In this document: piece after piece, positions 3,658-8,585 of the stretch
Position numbering within the stretch: the stretch's first letter is position 1
Layout: each line of letters starts with the position of its first letter
Source: an uncultured Solirubrobacterales bacterium
GTDB lineage: Bacteria; Actinomycetota; Thermoleophilia; Solirubrobacterales; Solirubrobacteraceae
DNA: 10,794 nt
Assembly: GCA_903830015.1 (NCBI GenBank)
Contig: CAIKSH010000049.1
Coordinates: 1-10,794, forward strand
Direction: 5' to 3'
Made by a program: the position numbers and the translations under genes
Notes under the pieces: model-generated
What the model was told of the DNA's origin: nothing
Seen by the model: the letters and a program-made list of their open reading frames with translations, nothing else
Databases searched by the model: none

Positions 3658-4545
3658 GTGAGGATCGTCAGCCTCGTGCCCCACGCCACCGAGCTGTGCT
3701 TCGCCCTCGGGCTGGGCGACCAGGTCGTCGGCGTCACCCACGAGTGCGACTTCCCTCCCGAGGCCGCGCAGGCCACGGCGGTCACCGCCGACCTGCTGCC
3801 CGACGGCCTGGACAGCGCCGGGATCGACGCGGCCGTGAAGGAAAAGACCGGCGGCGGCGAGGCGATCTACGCGCTGGACGCCGAGGCGCTCAAGGAGCTG
3901 GAGCCGGACCTGATCATCACCCAGGCCCTCTGCCCCGTCTGCGCCGTCGGCTACGACGACGTGGCCGCGGTGGCCGCGGAGATGGAGGAGCCACCGAAGA
4001 TCGTCTCGCTCGACCCCCACACCTTCGGCGAGACGATGGTCGACATCCGCACCGTCGCCCAGGCCACCGGAACCGAGCGCGAAGCCCTCGCCCTGATCGC
4101 CAGCCAGCGTGAGCGGGTCGACGCCGTGGTCGCCGCCGTCGCCGACGAGCCGATCGTCAGCTGCGTCGCGATCGAGTGGCTCGACCCGGTCTTCGTGGCC
4201 GGCCACTGGACACCGCAGCTGATCGAGATGGCCGGCGGCGATGACCCGCTCGGCCTCCCGGGGGAGGCTTCCCCCCAGCTCGACTGGGAGACGGTGGGCG
4301 CCGCCGAACCGGAGGTCGTGGTGGTCATGCCGTGCGGTTTTGACGCCGCGCGTTCGCTCGAGCTGGCCGAGGAGTTCCGCGAGCCGCTGCTCGCCACCGG
4401 CGCCCGGAAGATCGTCTGCGTCGACGGTTCGGCGACCTTCTCGCGCCCGGGGCCCCGGCTCGTGGACGGGCTGGAGAACCTCGCCCACATCCTGCATCCC
4501 GGTGCCGTCCCGCTGGCCCCGGGCCCGATCCTCGAACTTCAGTAG
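3658..4545 (+). CDS. BtuF-like cobalamin-binding protein without signal peptide
   Basis: The 295-aa protein belongs to the periplasmic-binding-protein fold of BtuF/FepB relatives (COG0614 type), often annotated as cobalamin-binding protein. It opens directly with the mature-domain motif RIVSLVPHATELCFALGLGD, then VGVTHECDFP (Cys30), PDLIITQALCPVCAV (CxxC at 92-95), EWLDPVFVAGHWTPQLIEMAGG (about 173-194) and a C-terminal RPGPRLVDGLENLAHILHPG. No signal peptide, lipobox or ABC transporter genes accompany it, so it probably stays in the cytoplasm and may not be a transport component. GTG at 3658 is chosen because the family motif starts there and a TAGGAT −10 is 7 bases upstream. The 3' end overlaps the convergent rhomboid gene by 7 bases. 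The fold assignment is strong; the ligand (cobalamin, heme or metal) is unproven. Confidence 0.87.
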   Translation: MRIVSLVPHATELCFALGLGDQVVGVTHECDFPPEAAQATAVTADLLPDGLDSAGIDAAVKEKTGGGEAIYALDAEALKELEPDLIITQALCPVCAVGYDDVAAVAAEMEEPPKIVSLDPHTFGETMVDIRTVAQATGTEREALALIASQRERVDAVVAAVADEPIVSCVAIEWLDPVFVAGHWTPQLIEMAGGDDPLGLPGEASPQLDWETVGAAEPEVVVVMPCGFDAARSLELAEEFREPLLATGARKIVCVDGSATFSRPGPRLVDGLENLAHILHPGAVPLAPGPILELQ

Positions 4546-5393
4546 CCAGCGGGCCCGACGGCGGCGTTGGCCACCACGATGGCCGCGACCACCGCTCCGA
4601 CTCCCACGGCGCCGCAGATTCCCCAGCCCAGGGCGGGCATCGAACGCCGCTCGGCGGCCACGAAGCCCAGCCCGACCAGGGCGCCGGCGGCCAGCCCGCC
4701 CAGGTGCCCGCCGATCGAGACGTTGGAGAGCAGGAAGCTGAAGACGAGGTTGAACAGCAGCAGCAGGCCGATCCCGGTCTGGAACGGGTTTATGCCCCTC
4801 GAGTAGAGGATCACCGAGGCCGCGCCCATCAGGCCGAATATCGCCCCCGAGGCGCCGACGGTGAGCGCGTCGGGCGAGAGGAGCAGCGCTCCGAAGGCGC
4901 CCCCGAGCAGCGAGACGAAGTAGATCGCCGCGAACCTGGCGTGGCCGAGCGCCGGCTCCATCTGGAAGCCCAGGAACCAGAGCAGGATCATGTTGAAGGC
5001 CAGGTGGAGCAGCCCGGCGTGAAGGAACCCGGTGGTCACCAGCCGCCAGTACTGGGCGTCGACTGCTACCGGGACGGCGTTGAGGCCGCCCTCGTAGAAG
5101 AGTCGCCCCTGGCCGCCGGTCAGGGCGAGCCCGTCGGTTATGAAGAACGAGACCACGCAGGCGATGATCAGGGCGATCGTCACCACCGGTGCTTCGGTGC
5201 CCGCCTGCACGGCGGCCACTGCGCGCTTGCCGGGTGTCCGGCCGGCACACTCCGGGCAGCGCATGCCGACCGGGCTCGCCGTCATGCAGTCGGTGCAGAT
5301 CGGGCGCCCACAGCCCGAGCAGGAAACGCCGGTCTGGCGACCCGGGTGGCGGTAACAGGTGGTCGTGGAGGCGGCTTCCATCTGCAGGGGCAC
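4539..5393 (-). CDS. Rhomboid-family intramembrane serine protease with N-terminal zinc finger
   Basis: Rhomboids cleave transmembrane segments inside the lipid bilayer. This 284-aa protein begins with a B-box-like zinc-binding region (Cys13, His16, Cys25, Cys28, Cys33, Cys36, Cys46, Cys49). About six membrane helices follow, between residues 70 and 278. YWRLVTTGFLHAGLLHLAFNM (115-135) is the loop-1/TM2 signature with His130 and Asn134. GASG (180-183) supplies catalytic Ser182, and SIGGHLGG supplies catalytic His230, so the protease should be active. GTG at 5391-5393 is preferred, since AGGGGGG lies 7 bases upstream; an ATG at 5381 lacks a ribosome site. It is the last gene of a co-directional cluster, 18 bases after a single-TM protein that could be its substrate (inference). 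The gene overlaps the convergent BtuF-like gene by 7 bases. Confidence 0.93.
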   Translation of the reverse strand: MPLQMEAASTTTCYRHPGRQTGVSCSGCGRPICTDCMTASPVGMRCPECAGRTPGKRAVAAVQAGTEAPVVTIALIIACVVSFFITDGLALTGGQGRLFYEGGLNAVPVAVDAQYWRLVTTGFLHAGLLHLAFNMILLWFLGFQMEPALGHARFAAIYFVSLLGGAFGALLLSPDALTVGASGAIFGLMGAASVILYSRGINPFQTGIGLLLLFNLVFSFLLSNVSIGGHLGGLAAGALVGLGFVAAERRSMPALGWGICGAVGVGAVVAAIVVANAAVGPAGY

Positions 5394-5400
5394 CTTGGCG

Positions 5401-5407
5401 CCCCCCT
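5401..5407 (-). promoter_or_regulatory. Ribosome binding site deciding the rhomboid GTG start
   Basis: AGGGGGG on the − strand lies 7 bases before GTG 5393, in the 18-base gap after the upstream stop codon. It favours GTG over the ATG four codons later. A TAGCCT overlapping the upstream TAG stop (5409-5414) could be an extra internal −10, but it may be chance. Confidence 0.45.
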
Positions 5408-5411
5408 GAGG

Positions 5412-5759
5412 CTAGCCGCGGGTGCGCCGCTGGATCTCGCGGGAGATGGTGGTCGCCGCCTCGCCGAGGAAGCGGACGGGATCGGCGCCCTTGGGCTGCG
5501 CGCGCCGGCGGCGGCTGGAGACGCCGAGGATCGCCACCGCGCCGGCGGCCAGCGTGCCGGCCGCCACGGCCGCCGCGGGCTTGACCCAGGTGCGCGGGTC
5601 GTGGAGGGCGTCGGCCTGCCAGGAGTCGAGTTCGTCGCTGGAGAGGTCGACGATCCGCTGCAGGTCATCCTCGAGCTTCTCGGCGAGCGTGTCCGGCGGC
5701 TCCACCGGCCGCAGGGCCATGCGCAGGAGCGTCTCGATATCGGGCTGCTGGCTGCTCAT
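5412..5759 (-). CDS. Small single-pass membrane protein coupled to the ECF sigma factor (anti-sigma candidate)
   Basis: The 115-aa protein has no recognised domain. Residues 1-58 are acidic and probably helical, and LRMALRPVEPPDTLAEKLEDDL resembles the pre-membrane part of some anti-sigma proteins. One Ala/Gly-rich membrane helix spans about 61-80, and a basic tail follows (RRRR at 83-86, ending REIQRRTRG). No zinc-anti-sigma HxxxCxxC motif is present. The positive-inside rule predicts N-out/C-in, the opposite of a classical anti-sigma but the orientation of many rhomboid substrates. Its ATG follows the sigma TGA by one base, with GGGAG inside the sigma gene's end, so translation is probably coupled. 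The rhomboid gene follows after 18 bases. The role as sigma regulator is inference from context. Confidence 0.8.
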   Translation of the reverse strand: MSSQQPDIETLLRMALRPVEPPDTLAEKLEDDLQRIVDLSSDELDSWQADALHDPRTWVKPAAAVAAGTLAAGAVAILGVSSRRRRAQPKGADPVRFLGEAATTISREIQRRTRG

Positions 5760-5760
5760 C

Positions 5761-6285
5761 TCAGACTCCCGCCTCGGCGGCCACGATTCCCTCGAGCTGC
5801 TTGATGGCGCGATGGATCAGCACCTTGGTGGCGCCGTCGCTCTTGCCCATGGCCCGGGCGATCTCCCGGTTGTTCATGCCCAGGGCGAACCGCATGATCA
5901 GGGCATCGCGCCGGTCGTCGGGAAGCTGCTGGACCGACTCGAGCACGTGGCGCAGCTCCTCGCGGCCCTCGACAAGCTCCTCGGTCGTGTGGAGGTCCCC
6001 CGGCTCGGCGATGGCGTCGAGGTTGGCCTGGGGCTTGCGGGCCTTGTCCCGGTAGTAGTTGGCGGCGAGGTTGTGGGCGATGCGGATCAGCCACGGCCGC
6101 AGCGGGCGCCCGTTGGACTCCTCCAGAGCGCGCCCGAAGTGCCGGTAGGCCTGAAGGAAGGTCTGCTCGGTGAGGTCCTCGGCGTCGTGATGGTTGCCGA
6201 CCCGGTAGTACGAGTAGGAGTAGACGTCCCTGAGGTGGGCGCGGTAGCACTCGGTGAACCGCTCGTCGAGTTCCTCCTTCTCCAC
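5761..6285 (-). CDS. ECF-type RNA polymerase sigma factor (sigma-70 family)
   Basis: This alternative sigma factor would direct RNA polymerase to a stress or envelope regulon. The 174-aa protein has only regions 2 and 4, as ECF sigmas do. Region 2 (about 8-80) includes VYSYSYYRVGNHHDAEDLTEQTF and the −10-recognition segment PWLIRIAHNLAANYYRD. Region 4 (about 115-168) includes LPDDRRDALIMRFALGMNNREIARAMGKSDGATKVLIHRAIKQL with its helix-turn-helix. GTG at 6283-6285 is used because it opens the conserved N-terminus and a TAGGCT −10 lies 9 bases upstream, without a Shine-Dalgarno. It sits 27 bases after the PlsC-GpsA gene and 1 base before a single-TM protein, then a rhomboid protease. It probably has its own promoter as well as read-through from the lipid gene. 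Confidence 0.92.
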   Translation of the reverse strand: MEKEELDERFTECYRAHLRDVYSYSYYRVGNHHDAEDLTEQTFLQAYRHFGRALEESNGRPLRPWLIRIAHNLAANYYRDKARKPQANLDAIAEPGDLHTTEELVEGREELRHVLESVQQLPDDRRDALIMRFALGMNNREIARAMGKSDGATKVLIHRAIKQLEGIVAAEAGV

Positions 6286-6312: not shown

Positions 6313-8019
6313 TCAGACCACCCGCGCCCCGACTATCCGGCGCGGCTCGGTAACCGAGCGCGCGAAGGCTTCGGCATCCTCGGACCCGGTGACCACCCCG
6401 GCGAGCCCCCGCAGGGCCGGGCAGCGGCCGCCGGCGGCTTCGATCCCGTCGGCCAGCGGCCCCACGCTCTCCAGCGCCTCGGCCACCTGGCCGAGCTCCT
6501 CGCGAACCTCATCGGCGCCCTTCCCCTCGGCCAGCAGCTCGCCGGCCCGGCGGTTGCGCCCGCCCTCGGCAACCACCGAGGCCATCAGGTCACCGGCACC
6601 GGCCAGCCCGGTCCAGCTCCCGGAGCTGGCGCCCAGCTGCTCGGAGAACGTCGCGATCTCGCTGAACACCTTGCCCGCGGCCGCCCCGGCGGCGTTGGGG
6701 CCGGCGACGGCGGCCGTCATTCCGGCCAGGACGGCGGCGTTGACCGCGATGCCGGCCATCTCGACCCCGGCCACGTCCCGGCTGGCCTCGACATCCAGGC
6801 CGGCGTCGGCCAGGGCCCGGCGCAGCTGGGCCAGGAAGGTCACGTCGTCGCCGGCGATGACCACCGAGGCGCCGTGGTCGAGCGAGTCGGCGGAGTGGGC
6901 CGGCCCGCCCAGGCAGGCGACCGGGTGGCCGGGAAGGCGCTCGCCACAGAAGGCGGTGGGGGTCTGGCCGGTGCCGGGCACGAGGCCCTTGGACATCACG
7001 ACCAGGCCGGTGTGAAGACCCAGCCTCGGGGCCAGTTCGCCAACCGCGGCCGGCAGGTCGGCGGCCGGCACGGCGAGCAGCACGACGTCCATGTGGGTGA
7101 GGTCGATGTCCTCGGCCGGCCCGACCTCGATGCCCGGCTCGAGCGGGTACCCGGGCAGGTAGCGCTCGTTGGAGCCAGCGCCGCTGATCTGCTCGGCCTC
7201 GGCGGCCGTCCGGGCGCCGAGCGCCACGTCGAGGCCCGAACGCCGGAGCATCACCGCCAGCGAGGTTCCCCACGAGCCGGCGCCGATCACCGTCGCGCGC
7301 CGCAACGGCGCCGTGCCGCCGAAGCTCTCCCAGAGCAGCTCGACCTGAGGCCAGATCCGCGAGGTGACCGCGGCCGCGAGCTCGCGGTCGGGGTGCTCGG
7401 TCTTCGGGAACGTCATCGGCTTGCCGGCGCGGATGGTGATCTTGCGGGGGTAGATCCGCCAGCCGCGACGGACGTTCTCGGTCCCGTAGACGGCCACCGG
7501 CACTACGGGAGCGCCGGTTTCGAGGGCCAGGCGCCCAACCCCGCTGCGCGGGTGGCCGAGCGGGCCGGGGCGCACCCGGGTTCCCTCCGGAAAGATCATC
7601 ACCACCTCGCCACGCTCGATCAGCTCGCGGGCCGTGGCCATCGATTCCTCGTCGCCGACGCCGCGGTCGATCGGGAAGGCGCCGAGGTTGCTGATGAACC
7701 AGCTCGCCACCCGGCCGTAGAGGCCGGGCTTCTCGAAGAGCTCACGCTTGGCCACGAAGAAGGCCTGGCGGCGGGTTAGGCCGACGATCAGGAACGGGTC
7801 CAGGAAAGAGCGGTGGTTGAGGGCGACGATCACGCCGCCCTTCTTCGGGATGTTCTCCCTGCCGATGCCGCGGAAGCGGAAGTAGAGTCGGGCCGGCGGC
7901 TCGAGGATCGCGCGAGCCAGCCAGTAGAAGGGCTTGTTTACGCCGCGGACCTTGGCCCGCGCGAGCAGCTCCTCACGGGTCTCCTCCCCGGCTTTTGCGT
8001 GTCGTACCTCTTCGCCCAC
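6313..8019 (-). CDS. PlsC-GpsA fusion: 1-acyl-glycerol-3-phosphate acyltransferase + glycerol-3-phosphate dehydrogenase
   Basis: One 568-aa frame joins two phospholipid-precursor enzymes. The PlsC half (about 30-232) has NHRSFLDP (His69, Asp74), GAFPIDRG, FPEGTR (143-148) and VPVAV, all the acyltransferase motifs. After about 8 residues the GpsA half (241-568) begins with ATVIGAGSWGTSLAVML, then ERYLPG, VVMSKGL (Lys344), GGPAHSAD, GAGDL (474-478) and GGRNRRAG. The Lys normally found in GpsA GALKN is Val426 here (GIAVN), and the SGPxxAxE motif is altered, so dehydrogenase activity is doubtful. GpsA makes glycerol-3-phosphate and PlsC adds the second acyl chain; the intermediate PlsY/PlsB step is absent. 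GTG 8019 is preferred, with AAGAGAG just upstream. A TTG extension to 8085 would overlap the divergent gene. It leads the sigma/rhomboid cluster. Confidence 0.92.
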   Translation of the reverse strand: MGEEVRHAKAGEETREELLARAKVRGVNKPFYWLARAILEPPARLYFRFRGIGRENIPKKGGVIVALNHRSFLDPFLIVGLTRRQAFFVAKRELFEKPGLYGRVASWFISNLGAFPIDRGVGDEESMATARELIERGEVVMIFPEGTRVRPGPLGHPRSGVGRLALETGAPVVPVAVYGTENVRRGWRIYPRKITIRAGKPMTFPKTEHPDRELAAAVTSRIWPQVELLWESFGGTAPLRRATVIGAGSWGTSLAVMLRRSGLDVALGARTAAEAEQISGAGSNERYLPGYPLEPGIEVGPAEDIDLTHMDVVLLAVPAADLPAAVGELAPRLGLHTGLVVMSKGLVPGTGQTPTAFCGERLPGHPVACLGGPAHSADSLDHGASVVIAGDDVTFLAQLRRALADAGLDVEASRDVAGVEMAGIAVNAAVLAGMTAAVAGPNAAGAAAGKVFSEIATFSEQLGASSGSWTGLAGAGDLMASVVAEGGRNRRAGELLAEGKGADEVREELGQVAEALESVGPLADGIEAAGGRCPALRGLAGVVTGSEDAEAFARSVTEPRRIVGARVV

Positions 8020-8066
8020 GTCTCTCTTACCACCGGCGGTGGTCCCGGTTACACGCCGCGCGCGTA

Positions 8067-8078: not shown

Positions 8079-8585
8079 GTGGCAATCGACCTGAAGAGAA
8101 CCGCGCGGGGCGCCCTGGCCGGGGCGATCGCCGCCGGCGTGTGGGCGATCCAGCAACCGATCGACAAGCGGCTCTTCGGCGTCCCCTACGACGACGTAGA
8201 GCTGCTCGGCAAGTTCGCCACCCGCGGACGGGCGTGGCCGCTGGCCGGCACCGCGATGCACCTGCTCAACGGCGCGCTCTTCGGCGCGCTCTACGCCAAC
8301 GTCGCCCCCTACGTGCCGCTCCCGGCGTGGGCCAAGGGGCCGGCGGCGGGAATGGCCGAGCACCTGGCCTCGTGGCCCGGTGTGAGGATGATCGGGAAGA
8401 TCCACCCGGCCGCCGGCGACTTCCCGCCGCTCTGGGGCGACCACATGGCCTTCGCCCAGGCCACCTGGCGCCACCTGCTGTTCGGGCTGGTGCTCGGCGA
8501 GGCCGAGCGGGCGCTCAACCCGCCGGCGCCGGCCGCTTCCGAAGCACCCGCTCCGGCGCCCGCCGACGCGGCCAGCGCCCGCTAG
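8079..8585 (+). CDS. Small multi-pass membrane protein, unknown function
   Basis: The 168-aa protein is not recognised as a named family. It has three to four likely membrane segments (about 8-26, 54-74, perhaps 84-98, and 122-141), with GALAGAIAAGVWAIQQPIDKRLFG at the first and AMHLLNGALFGALYANV at the second. Five His residues (61, 95, 109, 122, 132) lie in or near the helices, and GDHMAFAQATWRHLLFGLVLGE looks like the conserved core of the last one. The C-terminus (148-168) is a low-complexity Pro/Ala tail, probably cytoplasmic. GTG 8079 is chosen because a TAGGTT −10 lies 6 bases upstream; there is no ribosome site. The tRNA-Thr gene starts 13 bases after its stop. High GC at third positions supports real coding. 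Confidence 0.8.
   Translation: MAIDLKRTARGALAGAIAAGVWAIQQPIDKRLFGVPYDDVELLGKFATRGRAWPLAGTAMHLLNGALFGALYANVAPYVPLPAWAKGPAAGMAEHLASWPGVRMIGKIHPAAGDFPPLWGDHMAFAQATWRHLLFGLVLGEAERALNPPAPAASEAPAPAPADAASAR

Follow-up and report, generated by a model that had tools for sequence, protein, structure and literature searches.

A putative self-driven ECF sigma factor operon with lipid-synthesis enzymes, a small membrane protein and a neighbouring rhomboid protease in Solirubrobacterales

The window considered here, 10,794 nucleotides of contig CAIKSH010000049.1 (assembly GCA_903830015.1) from an uncultured bacterium of the Solirubrobacterales, contains genes for a fused PlsC-GpsA protein, an extracytoplasmic function (ECF) sigma factor (SIG), a small membrane protein (TMP) and a rhomboid intramembrane protease. 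The cluster probably represents a self-driven ECF sigma operon within a single order, in which SIG drives the lipid enzymes and itself, and TMP is the membrane partner of SIG. Very probably, the operon of lipid enzymes that contains SIG is driven by SIG itself, because a conserved promoter heads the PlsC(-GpsA)/SIG/TMP cluster and precedes SIG in six loci without PlsC. TMP is likely a regulator of SIG. An earlier note on this DNA described a possible rhomboid-driven circuit at positions 4539..6285; these coordinates omit the head of the operon, that is, the promoter-like site 8053-8028 and PlsC-GpsA. The new elements are the order-wide SIG-TMP pair, the reversed charge pattern of TMP, a conserved promoter upstream of lipid enzymes, and a second sigma pair splitting the SIG-TMP-rhomboid triad in 30 of 106 loci.

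The promoter

The comparison is based on 113 unique loci, obtained from 54 genome loci, 80 named loci (kept from 109 relatives found) and the window by collapsing on TMP residues 6-60. Regions spanning -320 to +40 relative to the PlsC reference point were available in 89 of them, 63 with PlsC and GpsA and 26 with PlsC alone before SIG. All 89 regions contain the word GTAAC before PlsC, compared with a mean of 12.1 and a maximum of 20 in 30 shuffles, and 6 on the opposite strand. The same word is found in 9 of 110 regions before SIG, 8 of 106 before the rhomboid gene and 0 of 34 before SIG2, the second sigma factor described below. In the aligned site GTAAC is preceded by T (68 of 89 regions) and followed by a spacer of 15 (69) or 16 (15) nucleotides and by GGGTA (38) or GTGTA (24). 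The full pattern TGTAAC-N15/16-GKGTA, derived from the same 89 regions in which it was counted, occurs in 85 of them, in none of the 89 on the opposite strand, and 0-5 times in 20 Markov shuffles. The site is present both with and without the SIG2-RskA pair.

In six loci with no PlsC or GpsA upstream (L036, L048, L049, L136, L137, L145) the -35 box of the site stands 57-145 nt before SIG itself. These belong to the 22 SIG loci outside the 89-region set, which were checked separately. Two further ones (L092, L158) have the site before PlsC, nine begin inside PlsC or GpsA, and two (L140, L161) have less than 210 nt of sequence before SIG. A scan of 2.22 Mb yielded 84 distinct sites, of which 70 were already known, 6 precede SIG, 3 precede PlsC (L092, L158, L275) and 5 are strays.

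The longest open reading frame of PlsC-GpsA in the window begins at 8085, and an in-frame GTG at 8019 lies 8 nt past the promoter -10. Since a start codon is similarly close in relatives (the nearest ATG or GTG is 4-12 nt below the site in 76 of 85), the transcripts look leaderless. A scan for sigma-70 promoters and terminators produced no promoters and one terminator, which is at the chance level. Another candidate promoter before PlsC, CTTGCC...GTCGTA, was rejected, as its conservation is the coding conservation of a divergent gene. This gene (8079-8585, plus strand, 168 aa) belongs to no Pfam family and is present in 43 of 85 loci.

Gene order in the window and in related genomes

The three genes of the earlier note are placed as it described, all co-directional, with gaps of 1 nt between SIG and TMP and 18 nt between TMP and the rhomboid gene (Table 1). 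PlsC-GpsA is a single fused gene ending 27 nt before SIG. The rhomboid start is GTG at 5393, with an alternative ATG at 5381.

Table 1. Features of the putative operon in the window
Feature	Coordinates	Strand	Evidence
Predicted ECF promoter TGTAAC-N15-TGGTA, operon head	8028..8053	-	exact site; motif conserved in relatives
Fused PlsC acyltransferase-GpsA glycerol-3-phosphate dehydrogenase	6313..8019	-	Pfam PF01553, PF01210, PF07479
SIG, BldN-like ECF sigma factor, 174 aa	5761..6285	-	Pfam/NCBIfam; best solved relative 6dxo_A
TMP, 115 aa, presumptive partner of SIG in the membrane, N-out/C-in predicted	5412..5759	-	family conservation, charge bias, AF2
Rhomboid intramembrane serine protease, zinc finger at the N-terminus, 284 aa	4539..5393	-	PF01694 and invariant residues

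The same order recurs in relatives, and thus the triad is not a chance arrangement. SIG lies directly upstream of TMP in 111 of the 113 loci, and the two exceptions (L063, L166) start at contig ends. The SIG-TMP gap ranges from -23 to 89 nt, the commonest values being -4 (40 loci) and -8 (25 loci), and in 106 of 111 loci TMP starts -23 to 25 nt from the end of SIG. A same-strand rhomboid gene is found downstream of TMP in 106 of 113 loci. All seven misses are at contig ends with 67-1533 nt left, and in two of these genomes (G019, G049) a close relative of the rhomboid occurs on another contig. The distance from TMP to the rhomboid varies by kilobases: among the 106 loci it is within 250 nt in 61, SIG2 and/or RskA intervene in 30, and in 15 the gap is larger with no SIG2 in it.

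TMP was found mainly in the order. A search with the window protein detected it in 55 of 61 genomes (the own genome and 60 relatives). A profile built from 111 rows matched 195 of the order's 232 genomes, including 103 of the 112 better ones. In a sample of the phylum, with 11 candidates scored per genome, TMP matches occurred in 20 of 396 genomes; 16 of these are in the order, and the other four matches have E 6e-5 or worse. The named loci, whose titles suggest that the order is Solirubrobacterales, are mostly labelled Solirubrobacterales, Solirubrobacteraceae, Thermoleophilaceae, Patulibacter, Conexibacter and the like, the others being named only Actinomycetota or similar.

Four loci in metagenome-assembled genomes titled Bifidobacterium breve (L090, L094, L113, L129) also carry the cluster. 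These titles look wrong, as their TMP is the same as in relatives of the window (G014, G003, G012, G026). One weak TMP-like match outside the order (L187, genome G382 of the same phylum) lies near an ECF sigma match. This stretch also contains a short zinc-finger frame similar to the N-terminal part of the rhomboid; the strands are opposite and the arrangement differs.

The sigma factor and the small membrane protein

SIG contains Sigma70_r2 (PF04542, E 2.1e-15) and Sigma70_r4_2 (PF08281, E 4.3e-13), with no region 3 family listed. Judged by these domains, the 174 aa protein, in which regions 2 and 4 are the sole sigma regions, classifies as an ECF sigma factor, as the earlier note had it. The closest solved structure is 6dxo_A (BldN, E 1.6e-19), and the top NCBIfam match is the BldN family model TIGR02952. 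The score of 114.1 bits is below the curated cut-off of 206.45, and thus SIG is BldN-like rather than BldN. It is the only match of the BldN model at E 1e-20 in the genome of the window (assembly 85% complete). Proteins from the order are 65-82% identical to it (50 of 54 rows). Elsewhere in the class SIG has matches in 20 of 22 BldN-model loci, with 28-35% identity. These loci are from other families, and none of them has a TMP or rhomboid match next to the SIG-like gene.

No Pfam family matches TMP at E 0.1, and its single hydrophobic segment comprises residues 62-80. The positions P18, P21, P55, W58, A64 and A71 are invariant in the alignment (111 of 113 rows). The consensus consists of ExLLRxALxPVEPPxxLxxRLExTL and AADELxxWELxAMRDPRNWVRPAAA, followed by a span rich in Ala and Gly and then a basic tail. 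Conservation is highest in the N-terminal pair of helices around PVEPP, which may resemble anti-sigma domains. The AlphaFold2 (AF2) model has helices at residues 8-15, 23-51, 59-84 and 94-114 (mean pLDDT 72, pTM 0.37). The scores of sorting signals are below cut-offs, 12.7 against 20 for MYXO-CTERM and 14.1 against 27 for PVV-CTERM.

The number of K and R in 20 residues is higher after the TMP span than before it in 108 of 112 proteins and equal in four, the means being 6.3 and 3.0. This bias predicts the N-out/C-in orientation. In the RskA proteins used as a control, the bias is reverse in 29 of 30 cases and equal in one. Fusions of TMP to the zinc finger of the rhomboid, described below, agree with N-out/C-in.

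The rhomboid protease

The rhomboid matches PF01694 with E 2.3e-31. Ser182 and His230, named in the earlier note as the active site, are invariant in 50 aligned rows, and the rhomboid family match together with the catalytic Ser/His pair identifies the protein as a rhomboid intramembrane serine protease, presumably an active one. The zinc-finger ligands C13, H16, C25, C28, C33, C36, C46 and C49 are invariant in the same number of rows. The finger is B-box-like, at 18.7 bits under the Pfam cut-off of 24.1. A rhombosortase/GlyGly-CTERM identity was rejected (43.3 bits against a cut-off of 84).

Close relatives of the rhomboid, with matches spanning the zinc finger, exist in the class outside the order. 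Beside these, matches to SIG, TMP, SIG2 or RskA were found in 0 of 19 loci read. Within the order, the genus g21 is without TMP in the four genomes listed (G036, G528, G529, G530). G528 and G530 keep the rhomboid (36-41% identical) beside PBP, with different genes upstream; no SIG match was found in this stretch, where a different sigma factor-like frame lies upstream. A full-length rhomboid was not found in G036 and G529. In G036, the sole g21 genome searched for SIG itself, the best match is 33% identical. A further zinc-finger rhomboid of G530 (L274, contig C388) is located beside a peptidyl-prolyl isomerase-like frame, as has been described for family A rhomboids of Streptomyces, and possibly on a foreign contig in the assembly.

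Two in-frame fusions of TMP and the rhomboid were observed. One is the frame L065 in G051, on the same contig as L148; it has an internal Met at the usual rhomboid start, so separate translation is possible. The other, P0010 (412 aa), is 44% identical to L065. In the fusion search, the TMP part was scored against fusion-length proteins, giving two matches among 7995 candidates (P0010, P0009). P0009, a SIG-TMP fusion, was discarded, since both ends look frame-shifted and an assembly error is suspected. P0006 looks chimeric, a TMP piece joined to unrelated sequence, which is likely an assembly error too. A further candidate for a TMP-rhomboid fusion, the 403 open frame of G587, was rejected, as SIG2-RskA is between.

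The second sigma pair and regional synteny

In 30 loci (L035, L072 and 28 others) a second ECF sigma gene, SIG2, stands between TMP and the rhomboid gene, mostly overlapping by 4 nt with an RskA-type gene. The names SIG2 and RskA come from reading the sequences alone, without a family scan. RskA and the rhomboid gene are separated by 19-78 nt in 28 of the 29 loci that have RskA between, and by 2176 nt in L034. In nine loci TMP and SIG2 are 487-2369 nt apart, with the rhomboid adjoining RskA. RskA matches are absent from all 17 genomes of the genus of the window. They occur elsewhere in G017, G035, G037, G040 and G050, among others, and may not be orthologues of the cluster gene. A quick tree covering 98 of the 113 loci calls for 17 or more changes in the presence of SIG2; it has many weak forks and may inflate this number. 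The pair seems, on this tree, to have been lost many times within the cluster. The tight triad of the window is the cluster without SIG2-RskA.

The surrounding region is also conserved. Among the 67 loci whose sequence extends far enough beyond the rhomboid gene, PBP on the other strand is found in 62, CNNM in 56, pterin dehydratase in 50 and HADH in 34; upstream, PlsC(-GpsA) is kept in 78 of 85 loci. The whole region is thus syntenic, and this explains the nearness of the rhomboid about as well as a specific link would. Partial correlations of distances (42 of 113 loci) are 0.21 for TMP and rhomboid and 0.40 for TMP and PBP. The distance values for PlsC are unusable, because its matches cover different parts of the protein.

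Comparison with known systems

The nearest known system is BldN-RsbN of Streptomyces, where RsbN is the membrane-anchored anti-sigma factor of the ECF sigma factor BldN (PMC8103513). BldN supplies both the nearest solved relative and the top NCBIfam model of SIG. The published BldN site, CGTAAC-N16-CGTTGA (PMC2375139), has its GTAAC core in common with the promoter described here, and likewise the spacing GTAAC-N17-GT. On the other hand, SIG is under the BldN cut-off, TMP has no similarity to RsbN, the -10 box is GKGTA here and CGTTGA there, and the promoter here heads a lipid-enzyme operon. The SigK-RskA pairs, cut by the site-2 protease (S2P) Rip1, are similar in that a one-span partner follows the sigma factor, and a sigma/RskA-like pair is present in 30 loci of the cluster. 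However, TMP is shorter, with no Pfam domain and the opposite charge bias, and the protease encoded nearby belongs to the rhomboids.

Classic rhomboid substrates have the N-out/C-in orientation, and TatA of Providencia is such a one-span substrate. The same topology is predicted for TMP, which, unlike TatA, has no match to the TatA family in Pfam and is only a candidate substrate. AarA-TatA has been named as a validated rhomboid-substrate pair (PMC8899591). Family A rhomboids of Streptomyces, likened here by layout, also have an N-terminal zinc finger, which is cytoplasmic there, and a Ser-His distance of 46 residues, compared with 48 here; their gene is beside a peptidyl-prolyl isomerase, whereas here it is behind SIG-TMP (PMC4467639). 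The earlier note had suggested that the zinc finger adds a sensory input. This is not borne out, since the finger is present in class relatives without sigma neighbours and in the family A and B rhomboids of Streptomyces (PMC4467639). No rhomboid cutting an anti-sigma factor was found in titles and abstract openings of the literature, subscription journals being mostly outside this search.

Alternative explanations

Several observations weigh against a SIG-driven operon with TMP as the partner of SIG. The predicted N-out topology places the conserved acidic N-terminal part of TMP outside, beyond the reach of SIG. This conflicts with a cytoplasmic N-terminal sigma-binding domain and is the main difficulty. 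Neither RsbN nor any other anti-sigma factor is among the PDB profile matches of TMP at E 10, and Foldseek with the low-confidence model gave no anti-sigma fold, the one match having E 7.7. The tree distances of SIG and TMP show no special link (partial r 0.09, 42 of 113 loci). Three loci (L078, L141, L144) have neither PlsC nor the site in the 260-444 nt before SIG. In G008, where 1.11 of about 2.0 Mb (60 stretches) was scanned, strict and middle patterns gave nothing, and the relaxed pattern gave three sites, one of them the head of the own operon, against 2, 4 and 3 in controls; this is not above controls, and thus no wider regulon is seen. The AF2 model of a read-through SIG-TMP chain (L054), built from an alignment of 1 fused, 8 SIG and 50 TMP rows, has pTM 0.47 with region 2 poorly modelled, which says nothing for or against binding. 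With a limit of E 0.001 this model has 11 fold matches, all of them to sigma factors and headed by 6dxo_A.

The role of the rhomboid allows several explanations. According to the earlier note, TMP would be the membrane anti-sigma factor of SIG, and the co-encoded rhomboid would cut it within the membrane and free SIG. The conserved SIG-TMP pair and a nearby rhomboid with a complete active site have stood up, and the downstream rhomboid is missing at contig ends only, remains where SIG2-RskA is absent, and has natural fusions with TMP; the Ala/Gly-rich span and the N-out bias of TMP also fit a rhomboid substrate. What did not stand is that the nearness is specific, given the synteny of PBP and CNNM, the 30 loci with SIG2 and/or RskA between, where the rhomboid hugs RskA, the two genomes that keep the rhomboid without TMP, and the correlation with TMP, which is lower than that between TMP and PBP. 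In addition, the topology conflict applies to a cleaved anti-sigma factor as well, and the own genome encodes two M50 (S2P-type) proteases as alternative cutters and one other rhomboid. We consider this explanation possible though rather unlikely; it refines the proposed SIG-TMP operon, and the probabilities of the alternatives below are not exclusive of it. Almost an even chance is given to the rhomboid being a general housekeeping protease that merely shares the neighbourhood, TMP controlling SIG otherwise (via S2P, lipid binding or stoichiometry). The class relatives with no sigma neighbours, the regional synteny, the g21 genomes and the M50 proteases agree with that. It is harder to reconcile with two natural TMP-rhomboid frames, and with the rhomboid never missing from SIG-TMP loci that have more than 1.54 kb past TMP.

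It is also conceivable, though very unlikely, that the original partner of the rhomboid was the RskA-type anti-sigma factor of SIG2, and that the closeness to TMP is what remains after the loss of SIG2-RskA. The short RskA-rhomboid gaps, the nine loci where the rhomboid accompanies RskA with TMP far from SIG2, and the lack of RskA in the genus of the window would follow from this. However, 76 loci with neither SIG2 nor RskA in between still have the rhomboid, and it stands behind TMP in G017 and G035 despite an RskA-like gene elsewhere; moreover, characterised RskA is a substrate of Rip1, an S2P (PMC10202637). Finally, instead of being an anti-sigma factor, TMP could be an N-out membrane protein merely sharing the operon, with its ectodomain shed by the rhomboid or as a helper of PlsC-GpsA. 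The charge bias opposite to RskA, the absence of anti-sigma similarity by profile or fold and the absence of SIG-TMP distance coupling all point this way. Against it stand the tight placement of TMP at the end of SIG, in contrast to the kilobase-variable distance of the rhomboid, and the possible likeness of the conserved N-terminal helix pair to anti-sigma domains, and we regard it as unlikely.

The proposed circuit and its significance

The gene order and the conservation of the genes, the promoter, the active site and the zinc ligands are observed; we infer that SIG reads the promoter and that TMP binds SIG, as well as the signal and the direction of control. SIG would recognise TGTAAC-N15/16-GKGTA before PlsC, which in most relatives has GpsA fused to it or next in line, and transcription from the leaderless-looking start would yield the enzymes of phosphatidic-acid synthesis together with SIG and TMP. 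TMP, made right after SIG from overlapping or near-touching frames, would restrain SIG at the membrane and may report the membrane state, closing a feedback loop on phospholipid synthesis. In the genus of the window the same transcript would reach the rhomboid gene 18 nt downstream. The rhomboid, an older class-wide zinc-finger type at the end of the cluster, may remove TMP and release SIG. A stronger form of the circuit, in which the rhomboid rather than S2P cuts TMP, the basic tail of TMP and not its N-terminal part touches SIG, and freed SIG drives the phosphatidic-acid enzyme operon, so that lipid state and SIG activity form one loop, is improbable.

The earlier note saw a hint of a membrane-lipid signal in the upstream gene, and indeed PlsC-GpsA shares its promoter with SIG-TMP. 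In Corynebacterium glutamicum, a double deletion of rhomboids increases phosphatidic acid, phosphatidylglycerol, phosphatidylinositol and diacylglycerol (PMC8899591), which fits a lipid link, although in another species.

Natural rhomboid substrates are unknown for most bacteria (PMC8899591), and TMP is a small, mostly single-copy, conserved candidate for one. The cluster is present in records of named strains, Patulibacter minatonensis, Patulibacter medicamentivorans, Svornostia abyssi and Conexibacter sp. S30A1. With a sigma factor, its predicted promoter and a lipid-synthesis operon as the read-out, each link of the proposed circuit is testable.

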